DNA from: Candidatus Cloacimonadota bacterium
GTDB taxonomy: Bacteria; Cloacimonadota; Cloacimonadia; Cloacimonadales; JAMOQM01
Assembly (NCBI GenBank): GCA_027064005.1
Contig: JAMOQM010000115.1
Span: 1-34,355, forward strand
DNA length: 34,355 nt
Reading direction: 5' to 3'
Below the pieces are notes generated by a model. The model did no database searches, was not told where the DNA came from, and saw nothing but the letters and a program-made list of their open reading frames with translations. Below are positions 1 through 12,553 of this stretch, piece by piece; the first letter of the stretch is position 1, and every line of letters starts with the position of its first letter. Both the position numbers and the translations under genes were made by a program.

Positions 1-376
1 AAAAGATGTTGTTCAAAACGAAGGAAATAATTCTGCAACTTGGACTGTCGGTGCTCAACCATCAATTGGTGATATCACTATAACAAATTCCACAGAAGAT
101 ATTACAACCTTTATGCACAATGGTGATGATTTAACAATCGATTTCTCATTGGTAAATCCGGAAGAGATTGCTTCATTATCAGTTTCCTTAGATTCAGATG
201 ACGCTCAAACATATACTTTCACAAGTACTGAAATCGCAGCAAATGTATCTCATACATTTAATAATGTTGTTGAAGCTGATCCGACCGGAACAATTACGGC
301 AATAGTTTCTGCAACTTCAGTTTCCGGTGGAGTAACAAATAATTACTCAAATACAGGAACCATTGCAATTGATAAC
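1..376 (+). repeat. Copy 1 of a near-identical 636-nt-period tandem repeat (partial)
   Basis: Bases 1-376 match 637-1012 with an offset of exactly 636 nt (212 codons). I count about 9 substitutions over 376 nt, and the first ~130 nt look identical. Divergence becomes complete just after the shared GATAAC. The unit encodes part of the surface protein, so this is a coding repeat. More copies may lie upstream of the window. Confidence 0.93.
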
Positions 377-1936
377 GTTCTTCCGGTAATTTCAAATATC
401 TCATACTCAGCAATGAGAGCTTCCGATTTATTGGAAGGAATGACTTATACAATTACAGCCGATATTAGCGATGCTGATTCCGGAGTTGATGCAAATAGTA
501 TTCTTCTAAATTGTACTGAATTATCATTAACAGATATTCCCGCTTCAAATTATGACGGAACAACTGCGACTTGGAATAACGTTCTTGTAATTCCAACTCC
601 ATTCAATCCTGATAATTTAACTGTTACAATTTCTGCAAAAGATGTTGTTCAAAACGAAGGAAATAATTCTGCAACTTGGACTGTCGGTGCTCAACCATCA
701 ATTGGTGATATCACTATAACAAATTCCACAGAAGATATTACAACCTTTATGCACAATGGTGATAATTTAACAATTGATTTCTCATTGGTAAATCCGGAAG
801 AAATTGCTTCATTATCAGTTTCATTAGATTCAGATGACGCTCAAACATATACTTTCACAAGTACTGAAATCGCAGCAAATGTATCTCATACATTTAATAA
901 TGTTGTTGAAGCTGATCCAAACGGAACAATTACGGCAATAGTTTCTGCAACTTCAGTTTCCGGTGGAGTAACAAATAATTACTCAAATACAGGAACTATC
1001 GCAATCGATAACTTGTTACCTGAAATAACGGAAACAGGATATTCAATTTCTGATGATGTTATTTCACTTCAGGTTAAAATTGTTGATGCCGGTATCGGTA
1101 TTGATAAAGATAGCATTTGGGTGGATTTATCAGAATTTACCGGTTCTACAAAACGTGTTGCTGATTCTTATGATAATGAATACGCTATTTGGAATTTAAG
1201 TTGGCAAAATGATTTGAATTCTCAACCTGTAGATGGAAATCTTACTATTTATTCTAAAGATAAATTTGGTAATGGTCCTGCTACTTTAGGAATATCTATT
1301 CAAGATACTCCGACAATTACTATCTCAACAAACGAATTAGCATTTGCCAGTACATATTTTGGACATAATTCAGATTCACAATCAGTTGTTTTGAATAATA
1401 TTAGTTATAATACTCTTATTATTAATTCAATTTCATTACCATCCGGGTTTGAAGTACAATTAGAAAATACTGATACTTGGACTGGTAATATCACTGAATT
1501 TGAGATTGCTCCGAGAACTTCTAAAAATATAGAAATTAGATATTCTCCAATCCAAAATGTTCAATATTCAGGAAATGCAACTATCACAACAAATGATCCG
1601 AATAATGCATCAGTTTTGATTAGTTTGTCAACAGGTAATGAAGGAACACCTACCACTTTCTTGAAACCAAACATCTTTACTCCAAATGGTGATGGTATTA
1701 ACGATGATTATCGTATTGGTCCATTTACCCTTGATGGAAGCAAAACTGCTGAATTCAAAGTATATAATTTAAAAGGTCGTCCTGTTCTTTCTCTATCTTC
1801 TCCTGCAAATCAAGAGATTGTCTGGAATGGTAAGAAAGATACTAATCATAAATTAGCGGAAGGAAATATCTATTTCTATAGGTATCTGATAAATGGGAAA
1901 TTATATCGCAGTGGTAAAATATACATCATTAAATAG
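2..1936 (+). CDS. Large repeat-containing surface protein with T9SS type B C-terminal domain (5' partial)
   Basis: The frame is open from base 2, so the gene begins outside the window; the first ATG (113) lies inside a repeat and is not the start. The visible 644 codons contain alternating beta-sandwich (Ig/cadherin-like) modules of about 105 residues, present as a nearly duplicated 212-residue unit. An ASH/choice-of-anchor-like module follows (NELAF...TTNDPNN, about 1330-1640 nt). The protein ends with the gliding-motility-associated type B sorting domain (FTPNGDGINDDY, VYNLKGRPVL, EGNIYFYRYLINGK), about 90 residues. In this family the tail directs export through the type IX system to the cell surface. 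No catalytic motif is visible, so an adhesin or structural surface layer is likely (inference). A barrel-like protein follows after 12 nt. Confidence 0.9.
   Translation, partial: KDVVQNEGNNSATWTVGAQPSIGDITITNSTEDITTFMHNGDDLTIDFSLVNPEEIASLSVSLDSDDAQTYTFTSTEIAANVSHTFNNVVEADPTGTITAIVSATSVSGGVTNNYSNTGTIAIDNVLPVISNISYSAMRASDLLEGMTYTITADISDADSGVDANSILLNCTELSLTDIPASNYDGTTATWNNVLVIPTPFNPDNLTVTISAKDVVQNEGNNSATWTVGAQPSIGDITITNSTEDITTFMHNGDNLTIDFSLVNPEEIASLSVSLDSDDAQTYTFTSTEIAANVSHTFNNVVEADPNGTITAIVSATSVSGGVTNNYSNTGTIAIDNLLPEITETGYSISDDVISLQVKIVDAGIGIDKDSIWVDLSEFTGSTKRVADSYDNEYAIWNLSWQNDLNSQPVDGNLTIYSKDKFGNGPATLGISIQDTPTITISTNELAFASTYFGHNSDSQSVVLNNISYNTLIINSISLPSGFEVQLENTDTWTGNITEFEIAPRTSKNIEIRYSPIQNVQYSGNATITTNDPNNASVLISLSTGNEGTPTTFLKPNIFTPNGDGINDDYRIGPFTLDGSKTAEFKVYNLKGRPVLSLSSPANQEIVWNGKKDTNHKLAEGNIYFYRYLINGKLYRSGKIYIIK
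637..1012 (+). repeat. Copy 2 of the 636-nt-period coding repeat
   Basis: Second copy of the segment at 1-376. Most differences are third-position changes (for example GAG/GAA); two adjacent codons change an amino acid (Pro-Thr-Gly to Pro-Asn-Gly, and Asp-Asp to Asp-Asn). This is consistent with a recent duplication or gene conversion under protein-level constraint. Confidence 0.93.
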
Positions 1937-1948
1937 AGGAGTAGAAAA

Positions 1949-3631
1949 ATGAAAAAATATATACTTGTAGCCCTATTAGCGATAATTATGATGAGCGTAT
2001 TATCCGCTAAGGAATTTATCCCCGCTCAAGAAATGGACGGATATAATATGAGATTCAAAACTTATTATTATGATAAGTTTGATGATTATGATATTGATTT
2101 CACAGGTTTTATGATAAGTAATCCTAAAATATTTAAAAACTTTTCATTAGAGACTGACTTCCAAAGTTACGGTGATAAAGTTTATAAAAAGATGAATTTA
2201 AATTTATCTTTAGGTTATACTTTCAGCGATAGATATACACTTGCTTTTTCAGCTGGAGGCGTTTATCAAACAATTGATAAGGACAAACTGATATTTGGTG
2301 CGGATGAAGATTTGCCTAATGACAATTCTAATGCCATCACTTATGGTGCAAGCGGATATGCAAAAATCTTAGATGGTAAATTAAATCTTGATTTTGGTAT
2401 TTGGAATATTAATGAACCCAATATTACTCTTTTAAATAATGGCTCCGATATTGAAAAAATGAAGGTTAGAGCTGATGCTAAATGGCAAGTTACCAACAAT
2501 CTTCAATTAGGAACTTATTACGAAAGAGAAAATGATGAAGATTATTTCGGTGCAACTTTTGCTTATTCATTCTCAAACCCAACTTTCGTAATGAATGTTG
2601 AAGGCGATGAAGAGAAAGTTACTATTATGCCTGAAATTGATTTGATTAACTACTGGAATTTCAAAGTAGGTTATGATTATTATTACGGAGATAGTTCTGA
2701 TTTGAATAATACAAACTACTATATTGAAGCAGCTTACCAAGTTCCAAACAAGAAAATGATTCCAATTTTCATGTTTAATGATAAACGCTTTAATGGAAAT
2801 AGAATTGTTACCTTCAATGACAGATTACCTTTAGAATTCAAAATCAAAAATTCTCCTCGTTTAAGATACGTAACAGTTAATCTTGATAATAAAAATTATG
2901 TTTTCGATTCAAATATCAGAGAACGTAATAGTAAATCATATAAAGCTGATTTGGAACTTAATGACGGCGTAAATAATCTTGTAATAGCTACAAAAGGTAT
3001 TGCCGGTGGAGAAATAAGAAAATCAATCCAAATAATCAAAAAAGAAAGAATGATCAATATCATAAATTTCTTTAAAAATATGTTGTTTAAAGAAGTTAAA
3101 ACTATCCAATGGAAAAGTACTCTTGAAACAGGTAGTTTTGATATTTCTTTACTCGATACAAAAAATTCTGAGATTAAAAAAATTAACGAAAATCCAATTG
3201 ATGTTAATTGGACTTCTAAAGATTTGATTTCTAAAAATTACAGTTTAATCTGGAATGATTCTACTTTGATAGACAGTATGTATTATAAAATCAAAATTAG
3301 AAATGATAAAAATAATATCGAAACTATCAGCGACTCATTTATGTATATCCATCCAAAACCGGTTGTTGATACTGTTGTCGTTGTTAAGAAAATAGTTAAG
3401 AAAAAACATAAAAAACGCTATATCGTTAGACATAAACCTAAAAAGGTTATTGAACAACCTAAACCGGAACCAAAACCGAAACCGAAACCGGTTGTTGCTC
3501 CTAAACCTGAACCAAAACCGGAACCAAAACCGGTTGAACAGCCTAAATCAAAAGGTTACGGACTTCCAATCGCAATTGGTGCCGGTGTAATATTGTTATC
3601 ATTGTTCTTCTTTAAAAAGAAGAAAAAATAA
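1949..3631 (+). CDS. Putative T9SS-associated outer-membrane barrel protein with TonB-like linker and C-terminal helix
   Basis: 560 residues; the start ATG has a GAGGAG ribosome site and lies 12 nt after the type B cargo gene, so the two are probably co-transcribed. A signal peptide covers about residues 1-20 (MKKYILVALLAIIMMSVLSA). Residues ~25-275 show alternating amphipathic beta strands with many Tyr/Phe/Asn, resembling PorP/SprF-type barrels, which in Bacteroidota commonly follow type B cargo genes. The family assignment is inference, as I see no PorP signature. Residues ~285-465 look like Ig-like beta domains. Next come a Lys-rich stretch (KKIVKKKHKKR), a Pro/Lys/Glu linker (PKPEPKPKPKP), a ~17-residue hydrophobic helix (LPIAIGAGVILLSLFFF) and five terminal lysines. 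A barrel plus a terminal membrane helix is an unusual architecture. Confidence 0.7.
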   Translation: MKKYILVALLAIIMMSVLSAKEFIPAQEMDGYNMRFKTYYYDKFDDYDIDFTGFMISNPKIFKNFSLETDFQSYGDKVYKKMNLNLSLGYTFSDRYTLAFSAGGVYQTIDKDKLIFGADEDLPNDNSNAITYGASGYAKILDGKLNLDFGIWNINEPNITLLNNGSDIEKMKVRADAKWQVTNNLQLGTYYERENDEDYFGATFAYSFSNPTFVMNVEGDEEKVTIMPEIDLINYWNFKVGYDYYYGDSSDLNNTNYYIEAAYQVPNKKMIPIFMFNDKRFNGNRIVTFNDRLPLEFKIKNSPRLRYVTVNLDNKNYVFDSNIRERNSKSYKADLELNDGVNNLVIATKGIAGGEIRKSIQIIKKERMINIINFFKNMLFKEVKTIQWKSTLETGSFDISLLDTKNSEIKKINENPIDVNWTSKDLISKNYSLIWNDSTLIDSMYYKIKIRNDKNNIETISDSFMYIHPKPVVDTVVVVKKIVKKKHKKRYIVRHKPKKVIEQPKPEPKPKPKPVVAPKPEPKPEPKPVEQPKSKGYGLPIAIGAGVILLSLFFFKKKKK

Positions 3632-4108
3632 GATAAATTAAAGGCGGATTTCTTCCGCCTTTTTTTATTCCCTAAAAACCTATTTTAGTTTAAAATATAA
3701 TATCCCAAATCATTAAAATTAATTCCTATAAATAACTTGTTGAAATTAGGCTGATTAAATTTCAATATAGACCATTAATATTGTGCTAAAATAAACTACC
3801 GATTGTGTAACAAAATAAAATACCAATAACACTTGTAAATGTACCTCGACGTTGTACGCCGTTTGAAATATAAAAAATAGCTAACTCATAACAACTTACA
3901 AACTCGTTATACGCCATTCCAATAATGAAAGTAACCAAAGCAGAAAGTCTAAAAATAATTACATACTTATTAAAAATAGATTTAGAATTTCCGGCAATCT
4001 ACAAATTCTCTTCACCAATTTAAAGTGCGAAGGAACCAATAAACTATTCTATGTAATTCTTGACCAAAATTCGGCAGAAATTATTTCTGAAAAAAAAAGG
4101 AGATTTCA
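3632..4108. other. 477-nt intergenic region without a convincing gene
   Basis: After the terminator the sequence is AT-rich and shows no recognised RNA or mobile element. An ATG at 3925 opens a 32-codon frame ending at 4023 (starting MKVTKAESLKIITYLLKIDL). A second frame, shifted by 2, reads on as sensible-looking codons to about 4110 (NLQILFTNLKCEGTNKLFYV). This could be a frameshifted remnant of a small gene, but I recognise no family. A TTGACC (4059-4064) and the AAGGAG ribosome site of the peptidase gene lie at its right end. Confidence 0.5.
3641..3668 (+). terminator. Rho-independent terminator after the barrel gene
   Basis: AAGGCGGA (3641-3648) pairs with TCCGCCTT (3654-3661) around a 5-nt loop, followed by a T run. 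It sits 10 nt after the stop codon and closes the two-gene T9SS unit. Confidence 0.92.
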
Positions 4109-6958
4109 ATGAAAAAAATTACAACACTTATATTTATTCTTTTTGCAATTAACATTTTCTCACACCCAAAAATTCCTATTTCAAACCCTGACAATACTTT
4201 GAAATATACAGCACGTGCCGATTCTCTTCACGGTTTTGATATTACAAAATATACTTTGAATATTACGATTGATGATGAGAACCACTATATTTCCGGAAGT
4301 GTAATTACAAATATTACTGCTGAAGAAAATCTAACTTCAATAGAATACAACCTTGTTGCTCTTGATGTCGATAATGTTAAAGTAAATAACCAGAATGTCG
4401 ATTTTACCTTCAATGATAATATTATAAATATTCCTCTCCAAAATATCAATGAAGGTGATAACTTCACAACAACAGTAACCTATCATGGAAATCCGGTTTT
4501 AACAGGTGGAGTTTATAATCTCGGAATGTTTTTCCAATCAAATGTTGTTTTTACAATTTCAGATCCAAATGCTGCCAGAAATTGGTGGCCTTGCTATGAT
4601 CATCCTTGGGATAAGGCGATTGTGGATTTGAATGTTACAGTTCGTGATGATTGGAATGAAGCGTCCAACGGAATCAGAACCGGTATTGATGATAATAATG
4701 ATGGAACTAAAACATATCATTGGGCTGGTGAAAACCCGATGACAACCTTTCTGGTAACTGTTTCAGCTTCTAATTTTGTAGAATTGGATGACGATTTTAA
4801 CGGTATTCCGATTATGAATTTCGTTAATCCTGCAATTGAAAATTCAGCTTTGACGGATTTTTCAAATTTACCTTTTATGATGCAAGTTTTCACCCAAAAA
4901 TATGGAGATTATCCTTTTGAAAAATATGGAAATGTTGTGGAACCAATGTCCACTTTTGGCGGGATGGAACATCAAACAATGACAACCCTTGCCTCCAATA
5001 TTATTGATGGAAATCATGGAAATGAAACGACTATTGCTCATGAATTGGCTCATCAATGGTTTGGAGATTGTTTGACTCCGCTAACGTGGAAAGATGTCTG
5101 GCTTTCAGAAAGTTTTGCGACCTATTCGGAATGTGTTTATACCCAAGAATGGCAGGGATTTGAGGCGATGAATAATTACGTACAATCCTCTTATCATAAT
5201 TATTATAAAAATTGGATGAGTGCAAATGGTGTTCGTCCCGTTTATAATCCTCCCTATGATGAAACTTTTGCTCCTCCTGTTTATGAGAAAGGTGCTTCGG
5301 TTTTACATATGTTAAGATTAAAAGTTGGTGATGATGTTTTTTGGCAAATTCTTCAAACGTATTTTCAAGCTTTTCATAATTCAAATGTTGTTACTAATGA
5401 TTTCAAAAATATTGCTGAACAAGTTTCCGGTTTGGATTTAGGTCAATTTTTCCAGCAATGGATTTTTCAACCCGGTTTGCCATCTCTAAAATATGCAATT
5501 TTTAATGATGAAGATAATGCTCAATTTCAGGTTGTTTCTAAAACATTTTCTAACTCCGATACCGATTTTTACCTTGATTTCCCAATTTCTGTAAATACAA
5601 CTACCGAGCAAGATTCATTTCTTGTACAAACAAATCCTAATGATTGGACTTCCTACCAAAATTCTTATTCCGGAGAAATAAATTCTTTTGAAGTTGACCC
5701 TCATAATTGGGTTTTTACAATTCATAATTATAATATTAAACCTGAAATTTCTTATGCTTTAGCCACAGATAATCAAGTATTTATTTCGTGGACCGGTTTA
5801 CCTTTTGATATTGATGGTTACAATATTTATCGCTCTCAGTCTGAAAATGGTGATTTTGTTAAAATTAATGATGAAATAATTACAAATACAAATTTTATTG
5901 ATGAATCCGTTCAAAACGGGAATTCCTATTACTATTATATTTGTGCTCAAAAAAATGATACTTATCTTTCTGAAAAATCTAATATTGTAAATGCAGAGCC
6001 TATTTCTTTTCCAATGGATCAAGGATACCTTTTTGTTGATGAAACACTAAATGGAGCCGGTAGTCCTGCAAATCCTAATGATGAAATGGTAGATGATTTT
6101 TATGTAGCAAGTTTTGGAGTTTCAAATTATTCTCAATGGGATGTTATGGAGCAAGGTTTACCTACCATAAATGATATTAAAAATTACAGTGTGATTATTT
6201 GGTATGACGATGATTTTTCTCAGCATTTGATTGAGGATGATATTCCGGCTTTAGAAAGCTTTATACTTGCCGGTGGAAATGTTTTGATTTCAGGATGGAA
6301 AACAGCTGATGCCTTGGATGCTGTTTTTTTGCATGATTTTGTAGGTGTAAACAGTGTATCTTTGGATAATTCGCCCCATTTTTCAAGTGCAATTTCAAAT
6401 TCCTTTCCTGATTTGATACTTAATCCTGATAAAATTATTCCAAATTGGAATGGAAAACTGCCGATGGTAGCAACTTTTAATGAAGCTGAAAATCCGATTT
6501 ATAGTTTTCAAGGTGAAGGAGATTTTGTAAATAATACCTGCGGAGTTGAAAAATCAAATAATGGAAATTGCTTTTTATTAGGTTTTCCGCTCTATTTTAT
6601 TCAAGATGAGAATGTTGCTGATTTTGCTTCTTTTCTGGAAAATGAATGGAATGTTGGTAATGATGATGATAATTTTGTACCTGAAAATTTACATCCAATT
6701 GTTGTTTATCCAAATCCTTCCCAAGTTTCTCGCTCCAACAATTTGAATGTAAAATATTATTCCCTAAAATCCGGAAACGTTGAGATGGAAATTTATAATA
6801 TTAAAGGTCAAAAAATACAAAGAATTACCTCGAATCTTAAAAAGGGAAATAATAAAATCCGATTAAATTTTAATGATAAATTAAGCTCCGGAATTTATTT
6901 TCTCAAAATTGTAAATTCAGATAGAGTTTCAACAAAGAAATTTGTCGTGGTTCATTAA
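4109..6958 (+). CDS. Secreted M1-family zinc metallopeptidase with T9SS type A sorting domain
   Basis: 949 residues, AAGGAG ribosome site, N-terminal signal peptide (MKKITTLIFILFAINIFS). The M1 aminopeptidase core is clear: GGMEH at residues 284-288 (exopeptidase motif), HELAH at 311-315 with the third zinc ligand Glu334, and Tyr392 in VYEKG as the likely transition-state Tyr. After the catalytic and helical region (to about residue 480) comes a fibronectin III-like module (~550-630). A segment (~635-850) with an alpha/beta look (LFVDETLNG, YSVIIWYDDD, GGNVLISGW) resembles the class I glutamine amidotransferase/ThuA fold. The C-terminal ~90 residues (VVYPNPSQVS...GQKIQR...LSSGIYFLKI) are a type A T9SS tail. 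Predicted role: extracellular or surface peptide hydrolysis. It stands alone, convergent with tsaB. Confidence 0.93.
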   Translation: MKKITTLIFILFAINIFSHPKIPISNPDNTLKYTARADSLHGFDITKYTLNITIDDENHYISGSVITNITAEENLTSIEYNLVALDVDNVKVNNQNVDFTFNDNIINIPLQNINEGDNFTTTVTYHGNPVLTGGVYNLGMFFQSNVVFTISDPNAARNWWPCYDHPWDKAIVDLNVTVRDDWNEASNGIRTGIDDNNDGTKTYHWAGENPMTTFLVTVSASNFVELDDDFNGIPIMNFVNPAIENSALTDFSNLPFMMQVFTQKYGDYPFEKYGNVVEPMSTFGGMEHQTMTTLASNIIDGNHGNETTIAHELAHQWFGDCLTPLTWKDVWLSESFATYSECVYTQEWQGFEAMNNYVQSSYHNYYKNWMSANGVRPVYNPPYDETFAPPVYEKGASVLHMLRLKVGDDVFWQILQTYFQAFHNSNVVTNDFKNIAEQVSGLDLGQFFQQWIFQPGLPSLKYAIFNDEDNAQFQVVSKTFSNSDTDFYLDFPISVNTTTEQDSFLVQTNPNDWTSYQNSYSGEINSFEVDPHNWVFTIHNYNIKPEISYALATDNQVFISWTGLPFDIDGYNIYRSQSENGDFVKINDEIITNTNFIDESVQNGNSYYYYICAQKNDTYLSEKSNIVNAEPISFPMDQGYLFVDETLNGAGSPANPNDEMVDDFYVASFGVSNYSQWDVMEQGLPTINDIKNYSVIIWYDDDFSQHLIEDDIPALESFILAGGNVLISGWKTADALDAVFLHDFVGVNSVSLDNSPHFSSAISNSFPDLILNPDKIIPNWNGKLPMVATFNEAENPIYSFQGEGDFVNNTCGVEKSNNGNCFLLGFPLYFIQDENVADFASFLENEWNVGNDDDNFVPENLHPIVVYPNPSQVSRSNNLNVKYYSLKSGNVEMEIYNIKGQKIQRITSNLKKGNNKIRLNFNDKLSSGIYFLKIVNSDRVSTKKFVVVH

Positions 6959-11376: not shown

Positions 11377-12495
11377 TTATTTTAGCAACAACATTTTTTT
11401 AATCGACTTGTAATTGTTTGTTTTCAAAATATAAAAATAAATTCCTGAGGAACATTTTAAATTATTTTCGTCCAAACCTCTCCAAGTTACAGAATAGTTT
11501 CCGGCTTTCATTTCTCGATTGTAGAAAGTTCTTACTTTTTGTCCCAAAACATTATAAATACTTAAATTTACATTTGAATTTTCCGAAACGGAAAAATCAA
11601 TATTTGTTTCCGGATTAAATGGATTTGGATAAGCATTACCTAACTTAGTTGCTTCCGGAACGTCAGGTGTATCATTATTTCCAAAAGTTTTGACTGTTAT
11701 CGGTTGAGATAATTCAGAAGTTCCGTTATTATTAAGAATTCTTAACCAATAGTAATATGTTTGATTCATCTCTACTTCTGAATCCATAAAATTGTAAGAA
11801 TTTTCTTGAGAAGTATTTGTACCGGCAATTAAAGTTGCATTCAATTTTATAGCATCTGTTGAATTTTCAGTCAAACTTCTCAAAACATCAAACCCCATAA
11901 AATCAGTTTCCGTTTGAGTAATCCAATTCAAGTTAACATAATTTTCATTTGTAAATGTAGCTGAAAATGAAGATAATTCTACAGGAAGAGTTGTCCCGTC
12001 ATCCATAACAAAATTATCAATATAAATAATTTCGTTTCCATCAAAATCAGTTTGATCATAAAATCTCAGTCCTACTGGAATGTCTTCATCGGCAGAGGCT
12101 GTATATGACCAAGTATATTCCTGCCACCCGGTTGTTGTATTATCGGAATAAGTATTGTCATAAGTACCAACATAGAATCTGATTTTTAAATGACCTTCGG
12201 TATTTTTATAGCGTAATGAAATTGTATATTCAGTACCTTCTGTAACATGAACGGTCTGTCTAAAATCTGTGTTTTTTTGAGAACCGGTAGTTACCTCCAT
12301 TGCACAAGAGCTATTACCTTCATAAACATTTTCAGCAACATTTTCTTGAGTTGGATTAATGCCGGAATCAATTGTTGTCCAATCGTCAGGTGTTCCCCCT
12401 GTCCAATTTTCAAATCCCGGATTTGCAATAATATTGATACCAAATAATGATATGCTAAATATTATCAAAATAAATAATACTGTTAGTTTTTTCAT
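11377..12495 (-). CDS. Secreted protein with CBM-like and Fn3-like domains and T9SS type A tail
   Basis: 372 residues from the ATG preceded by AAGGAG (about 12502-12508). A 10-codon in-frame extension upstream is less likely because the signal peptide starts here (MKKLTVLFILIIFSISLFG). Residues ~22-160 (NPGFENWTGG, DDWTTI, YTISLRYKN, YIDNFVMDD) resemble a carbohydrate-binding jelly-roll domain (CBM4/9 type). A fibronectin III-like module follows (VELSSFSATF, VNLNWITQTE), then a T9SS tail (AYPNPFNPETNIDFSV, NVLGQKVRTF, SSGIYFYILK). No catalytic domain is present. It is probably an exported glycan-binding or surface protein; the ligand is unknown. Confidence 0.88.
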   Translation of the reverse strand: MKKLTVLFILIIFSISLFGINIIANPGFENWTGGTPDDWTTIDSGINPTQENVAENVYEGNSSCAMEVTTGSQKNTDFRQTVHVTEGTEYTISLRYKNTEGHLKIRFYVGTYDNTYSDNTTTGWQEYTWSYTASADEDIPVGLRFYDQTDFDGNEIIYIDNFVMDDGTTLPVELSSFSATFTNENYVNLNWITQTETDFMGFDVLRSLTENSTDAIKLNATLIAGTNTSQENSYNFMDSEVEMNQTYYYWLRILNNNGTSELSQPITVKTFGNNDTPDVPEATKLGNAYPNPFNPETNIDFSVSENSNVNLSIYNVLGQKVRTFYNREMKAGNYSVTWRGLDENNLKCSSGIYFYILKTNNYKSIKKMLLLK

Positions 12496-12524
12496 GATAA
12501 ACTCCTTTTTACGTAATTTTCGCA

Positions 12525-12553
12525 AAATTAACAGCTTAACTGTTTTTTGTCAA
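12525..12553 (-). promoter_or_regulatory. Candidate promoter for the T9SS CBM-like gene
   Basis: On the minus strand TTGACA (12548-12553), a 17-nt spacer and TAATTT (12525-12530), 58 nt before the start codon. The spacer contains a small inverted repeat (AACAG...CTGTT). Good -35, weak -10. Confidence 0.42.

Follow-up and report, generated by a model that had tools for sequence, protein, structure and literature searches.

The stretch of DNA analysed here, called the window below, covers 34,355 nt of a Candidatus Cloacimonadota bacterium (GCA_027064005.1, contig JAMOQM010000115.1, positions 1 to 34,355, forward strand). Its first gene (2-1936, +) encodes an adhesin-like repeat protein whose C-terminal domain (CHU_C / Bac_Flav_CTERM, 1667-1936) marks it as a type B T9SS cargo, as the preliminary description had recognised; the domain matches the Pfam CHU_C model at E 3.2e-10 and TIGR04131 at E 2.2e-6, the latter below the TIGR04131 cut-off, and is the strongest CHU_C match in the whole genome. 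This genome holds 62 matches to the CHU_C model, most of them type A cross-matches by appearance. The 5' end of the cargo gene is missing because the window begins at the contig edge inside it, and the missing part was sought on the other contigs of the assembly but not found. Within window 1-936, the gene contains a 636-nt repeat unit whose copies are 98% identical; the repeat lies at the contig edge and probably stands for a longer array that was collapsed, in which case the adhesin would exceed its assembled length. Two further window proteins carry type A T9SS sorting domains, namely an M1-family peptidase-like protein (4109-6958) and a CBM/fn3 protein (11377-12525).

The second gene (1949-3631, +) starts with ATG 12 nt behind the cargo stop codon, with the RBS AGGAG (1937-1941, +) read from the sequence of the gap, and encodes a protein of 560 aa. 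A signal peptide is predicted at residues 1-20 (1949-2008), a hydrophobic N-terminus with LSA at its end, followed by a predicted 14-strand outer-membrane barrel of a divergent PorP/SprF-PorV shuttle type (residues 32-265, 2042-2743), assigned from AF2, Foldseek, hhalign with controls and the TIGR03519 matches of homologues. Ig domain 1 (residues 273-364, 2765-3040), which is present in every family member, was delimited by AF2, a weak Big_13 match and the family alignment; Ig-like domain 2 (residues about 369-465, 3053-3343), where model confidence is low, was recognised by alignment with relatives from genomes G003 (two copies) and G116 (one copy). A Lys-rich patch and a Pro/Lys/Glu linker follow at residues 467-538 (3347-3562), as judged from composition and predicted disorder; the linker with its PKPEPKPKPKP repeats comprises 74 residues, including 20 Lys and 17 Pro. 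The protein ends in the terminal hydrophobic helix LPIAIGAGVILLSLFFF (residues 539-555, mean KD 2.45) and KKKKK (556-560), together at 3563-3628; AF2 places a helix at 541-559 with low pLDDT, and the tail aligns with that of the G003 relative. Among the 25 ORFs of the window, this protein has the most hydrophobic C-terminus, and its whole 560 aa sequence contains no cysteine. An intrinsic terminator (3640-3669, +), consisting of a 9-pair stem and then a T run in the sequence, ends the cargo-barrel operon. All elements first listed for this protein, from the signal peptide, beta region and Ig modules to the Lys-rich patch, proline repeats, hydrophobic helix and lysine end, are thus confirmed. 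The layout is real and not due to chance: six other genes share the conserved N-terminal 360 aa, and the terminal helix can be aligned with its G003 counterpart.

The AF2 model of the window protein, computed from a four-sequence alignment, places 14 strands within residues 32-265 and an Ig fold at 273-364, with disorder starting at 467 and a C-terminal helix at 541-559. Its mean pLDDT is 57.9, with values of 70-82 over much of the second half of the barrel and 63-89 in the Ig domain 1 block. A LysM-bearing homologue from G010, modelled separately, again shows 14 strands plus the Ig domain, and in both models confidence is moderate for the barrel and low for the tail. Both models match 14-strand barrels of the PDB, OmpG and FadL, in Foldseek, so the 14-strand FadL-like outer-membrane barrel typical of PorP/SprF type B shuttles is found in two models. 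The top PDB match of the G010 model is the solved T9SS PorV (6h3i_F, E 2.9e-6), and the PorV chain 8gl6_F is among the first ten PDB matches of the window model. Sequence searches of the PDB gave low-complexity matches only with the window protein and no match with the family profile. The early proposal that the N-terminal part is a barrel has held in both models, and an outer-membrane barrel is a well-supported prediction for the window protein.

The TIGR03519 (PorP/SprF) model matches across the barrel in four of the seven family members, at E 5.2e-7 (G003, the best), 8.6e-6, 7.7e-4 and 8e-4, all four scoring below the curated cut-off of 90.55 bits. The window protein itself matches none of the PorP or PorV models searched, so the PorP/SprF search proposed at the outset gave matches below cut-off in four homologues and none in the protein for which it was suggested. 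Searches of the family with PF11751 and NF033709 and a PHROGs search gave no match. When the family profile was aligned by hhalign (signal peptides removed) with PorV-family barrels of Cloacimonadota, the probability was 86-96%, against less than 3% for unrelated barrels and noise level for reversed and column-shuffled profiles; this is the profile-level homology to PorV-family barrels that would be looked for in a PorV/PorQ family member. PorQ-like barrels of Cloacimonadota were also considered as kin and set aside at a profile match of just 1.6% (hhalign). On the four homologue matches and the hhalign probabilities set against their controls, the barrel is classed by sequence as a divergent member of the PorP/SprF-PorV superfamily, under curated cut-offs.

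Related genes were found only after an alignment had been built, as the window protein alone used as query gave nothing. The survey sample consisted of 125 Cloacimonadota genomes, with the profile search confined to this phylum, and the barrel family comprises seven genes in six of them. All six members with upstream sequence sit 7-12 nt behind a CHU_C type B cargo gene (12 nt in the window, 7-11 nt in the relatives), whereas the seventh gene starts at a contig edge; this adjacency spans several families and is the genetic linkage to type B CTD cargo that characterises PorP/SprF shuttles. TIGR04131 matches at E 1e-6 or better occur once per genome in 11 of the 125 genomes, all six barrel genomes among them, for which the chance is about 1e-7 if genomes are independent (hand calculation), a figure weakened by their relatedness; the adjacency in every case stands apart from this figure and is therefore unaffected by genome relatedness. 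The family accompanies most of the few convincing type B cargos of Cloacimonadota, and the pairing of barrel and type B cargo, the T9SS link first proposed, is well supported. In G107, a type B cargo is paired with a PorV-family barrel bearing TPR repeats. The type B cargo of G119 (L112:3811-4971), which closely resembles that of G116, has no adjoining barrel in the intergenic space and contig edge that were searched. TIGR04131 matches in G053, G109 and G111, three of the five genomes that lack this barrel family, were rejected as type B cargo, being type A-like when the hits were read.

The same pairing bears on the possibility that the barrel serves generally as a porin or tether of the outer membrane and has a type B cargo gene beside it only incidentally. 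In favour of this stand OmpM and SlpA, barrels reported to bind peptidoglycan through a stalk (PMC10628300, PMC9388160) and alike in joining a barrel to a wall-binding stalk in the periplasm; they are, however, SLH-based general porins or tethers with no T9SS cargo link and no membrane helix. Given the adjacency in 6/6 cases across several families at gaps of 7-12 nt and the profile kinship of the barrel to T9SS shuttles, an incidental neighbour is unlikely.

After Ig domain 1, the family members diverge. The arms of the window and G003 proteins consist of extra Ig-like domains (one and two, respectively), a linker and the terminal helix, and 9 of 5000 shuffles align as well as these two tails do. 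The arms of the G018, G010 and G089 proteins carry two LysM domains each, while in two genes of G116 the arm is a caspase domain (Peptidase_C14), with a DUF4384 gene next. The caspase-ended shuttle barrels of G116 lie at L027:2455-4962 and L028:1-2355; caspase-DUF4384 pairs without a barrel occur in G092 and G094 (L106, L107). The terminal helix is found in only two of the seven members and is missing from the LysM and caspase members; conversely, domain search detected no peptidoglycan-binding domain in the window protein, LysM being confined to the three homologues. The C-terminal arm is thus exchanged within the family, between linker plus helix, two LysM domains and a caspase domain, and this is a new point. 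The spacer from Ig domain 1 to LysM is about 64 residues in the LysM members, and in the window protein it is an Ig domain plus 74 residues; the longer spacer of the helix members is what one would expect of a helix that has to extend as far as the inner membrane; this is consistent with such a placement and is not proof of it. The resolution of the barrel-region tree is too poor to order the arm exchanges. Tail-only similarities in other genomes were discarded as low-complexity linkers of kinases, SPOR-like and FtsZ-like proteins.

The window protein had initially been read as a possible tether between the two membranes. The idea of a tether gains from the three relatives in which two LysM domains replace the tail, and the homologues retain the link to T9SS cargo; however, five of the seven members have neither linker nor helix and end in LysM or caspase domains. 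What the family shares in general is therefore a periplasmic arm with exchangeable ends, and not an outer-to-inner membrane tether.

Other functions of the arm have also been considered. It could signal or regulate, informing the periplasm or inner membrane of the cargo's status at the barrel, an idea expressed most clearly by the two G116 members with their Peptidase_C14 end and following DUF4384 gene, a pair that exists without a barrel too; but LysM is a binding module with no signalling role known by itself, and the window tail offers five lysines only and no other cytoplasmic domain, so we give this function a small chance. Similarly, the helix and KKKKK could form a cleaved C-terminal sorting signal of the PEP-CTERM, GlyGly-CTERM or sortase type, in which case the inner-membrane anchor would be lost. 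The motif, helix and basic end share the general layout of such signals, and the G003 tail has PEPEPEPKG ahead of its helix; nevertheless, PEP-CTERM or similar models do not match the window protein, the exosortase PF09721 is absent from the six family genomes in a search whose positive control matched, and the LysM relatives use the same protein end for domains that stay attached, which makes cleavage improbable. Least probable is a TonB-like arm that transmits force from an inner-membrane motor so that barrel and cargo are pulled or moved along the surface: the window protein does combine a Pro/Lys/Glu linker with one membrane helix, as TonB does, and SprF in Flavobacterium is linked to a track that moves (PMC12635249), but the likeness claimed in the preliminary description proved to lie in composition alone, with a match at E 0.1 confined to low-complexity sequence, the TonB C-terminal domain was not found in the window protein, the helix of TonB is N-terminal and TonB has no barrel, there is no cysteine for a disulfide of the SprF-GldK type, GldL and GldM are undetected, and the LysM relatives favour static anchoring.

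The window protein is best read as a self-anchoring type B T9SS shuttle with a built-in anchor, a reading that we regard as fairly likely. Barrel fold, family kinship, cargo linkage and arm exchange are supported by computation, and we infer cargo binding, topology, inner-membrane insertion and load bearing. The signal peptide and the 14-strand barrel would place the protein in the outer membrane as the carrier for the repeat protein encoded upstream, where the barrel would take the type B domain of the cargo from the SprA translocon and keep the cargo on the surface. An even number of strands leaves the C-terminus of the barrel on the periplasmic side, where the Ig spacers and the extended linker (about 23 nm when fully stretched) would carry the C-terminal anchor. 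In the three LysM relatives, this anchor would be the two LysM domains, presumably on peptidoglycan; in the window and G003 proteins, it would be the terminal helix, for which the simplest placement is in the inner membrane with the Lys end cytoplasmic, and the window shuttle is probably tied to the inner membrane here. With LysM exchanged for a helix, the inner membrane suggests itself as the other point of anchorage. Static anchoring is a better analogy than a moving track because the window protein has no cysteine and its siblings carry LysM. A further step is proposed more tentatively, with doubt slightly outweighing belief: a single chain would combine an outer-membrane barrel holding a surface protein with an inner-membrane-anchored span of the periplasm, and the periplasmic end of the family would act as a plug-in slot for helix, LysM or caspase. 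A covalent link between the barrel and an inner-membrane helix poses an assembly problem, in both Sec release and BAM insertion.

In Bacteroidota, a PorP-like barrel is the binding partner of type B cargo, and PorE ties static complexes to the wall (PMC9143113, PMC12618676). For instance, P. gingivalis forms a PorP-PorE-PG1035 complex with PorE on peptidoglycan (PMC9143113), and a type B cargo, its own shuttle and PorE are found in operons (PMC12618676), while SprF is joined through cysteines to a moving track (PMC12635249). The Cloacimonadota family resembles the PorP/SprF type B shuttles (TIGR03519, PF11751) in its 14-strand barrel, in its gene position beside type B CTD cargo and in the significant sub-threshold matches of four members. 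It differs from them in the arm: described PorP/SprF proteins have a short periplasmic tail, as in SprF, whose CxC is disulfide-bonded to GldK, whereas the arm here has 200-500 residues and exchangeable ends; the CxC C-tail, a feature of gliding shuttles only, is absent from the cysteine-free window protein. As in the PorE-PorP-PG1035 complex of Porphyromonas gingivalis (PMC9143113), a barrel-held type B cargo would be tied to peptidoglycan in the LysM members, but PorE is a lipoprotein of its own whose C-terminal domain binds peptidoglycan, and here LysM, terminal helix or caspase domain is fused to the barrel. One polypeptide would thus do the job of a cargo-bound PorP plus PorE. In the open-licence papers searched, neither a fusion of a T9SS shuttle with LysM or OmpA nor a barrel with an inner-membrane helix had a precedent; preprints and most subscription journals lie outside this set.

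T9SS in Cloacimonadota has been proposed and is little studied. The SprA translocon was found in 116 of the 125 genomes, including that of the window; the GldM model gave nothing above cut-off in the 125 genomes and the GldL model nothing in six genomes, although a model miss is not absence. The energy chain of the Cloacimonadota T9SS may be divergent or different, and with GldL and GldM undetected the secretion machine of the phylum is incompletely understood. The phylum also has PorV-family barrels with C-terminal TPR (L032/L111, L035, L039, L045), at L111:4512-5972, L035:793-2274, L039:817-2280 and L045:829-2280, each directly after a gene whose C-terminal domain is FlgD- or type B-like; at L035, L039 and L045 a conserved third gene with no family assigned follows. 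These are like the present family in having a shuttle-like barrel that is encoded after a cargo-like gene and ends in a periplasmic domain, but have TPR in place of Ig and anchor and are nearer PorV_fam in sequence. In addition, conserved pairs of a FlgD_ig-ended protein (with lamin-tail domains in L103) and a PorV-family barrel of about 285 aa occur in L100, L101, L102 and L103, and are a possible further cargo-shuttle pair.

How type B cargo stays on the surface after leaving SprA is an active question. Bacteroidota use a shuttle together with either a second protein that binds the wall or a moving track; the family described here provides natural shuttle-anchor fusions and extends type B shuttles to Cloacimonadota. 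These fusions orient the shuttle with its C-terminus in the periplasm, support the static anchoring that has been proposed, and offer swapped anchors for comparison. If the helix lies in the inner membrane, the barrel would be joined directly to that membrane, an arrangement for which the open-licence papers searched gave no description and from which the question of its assembly would follow.
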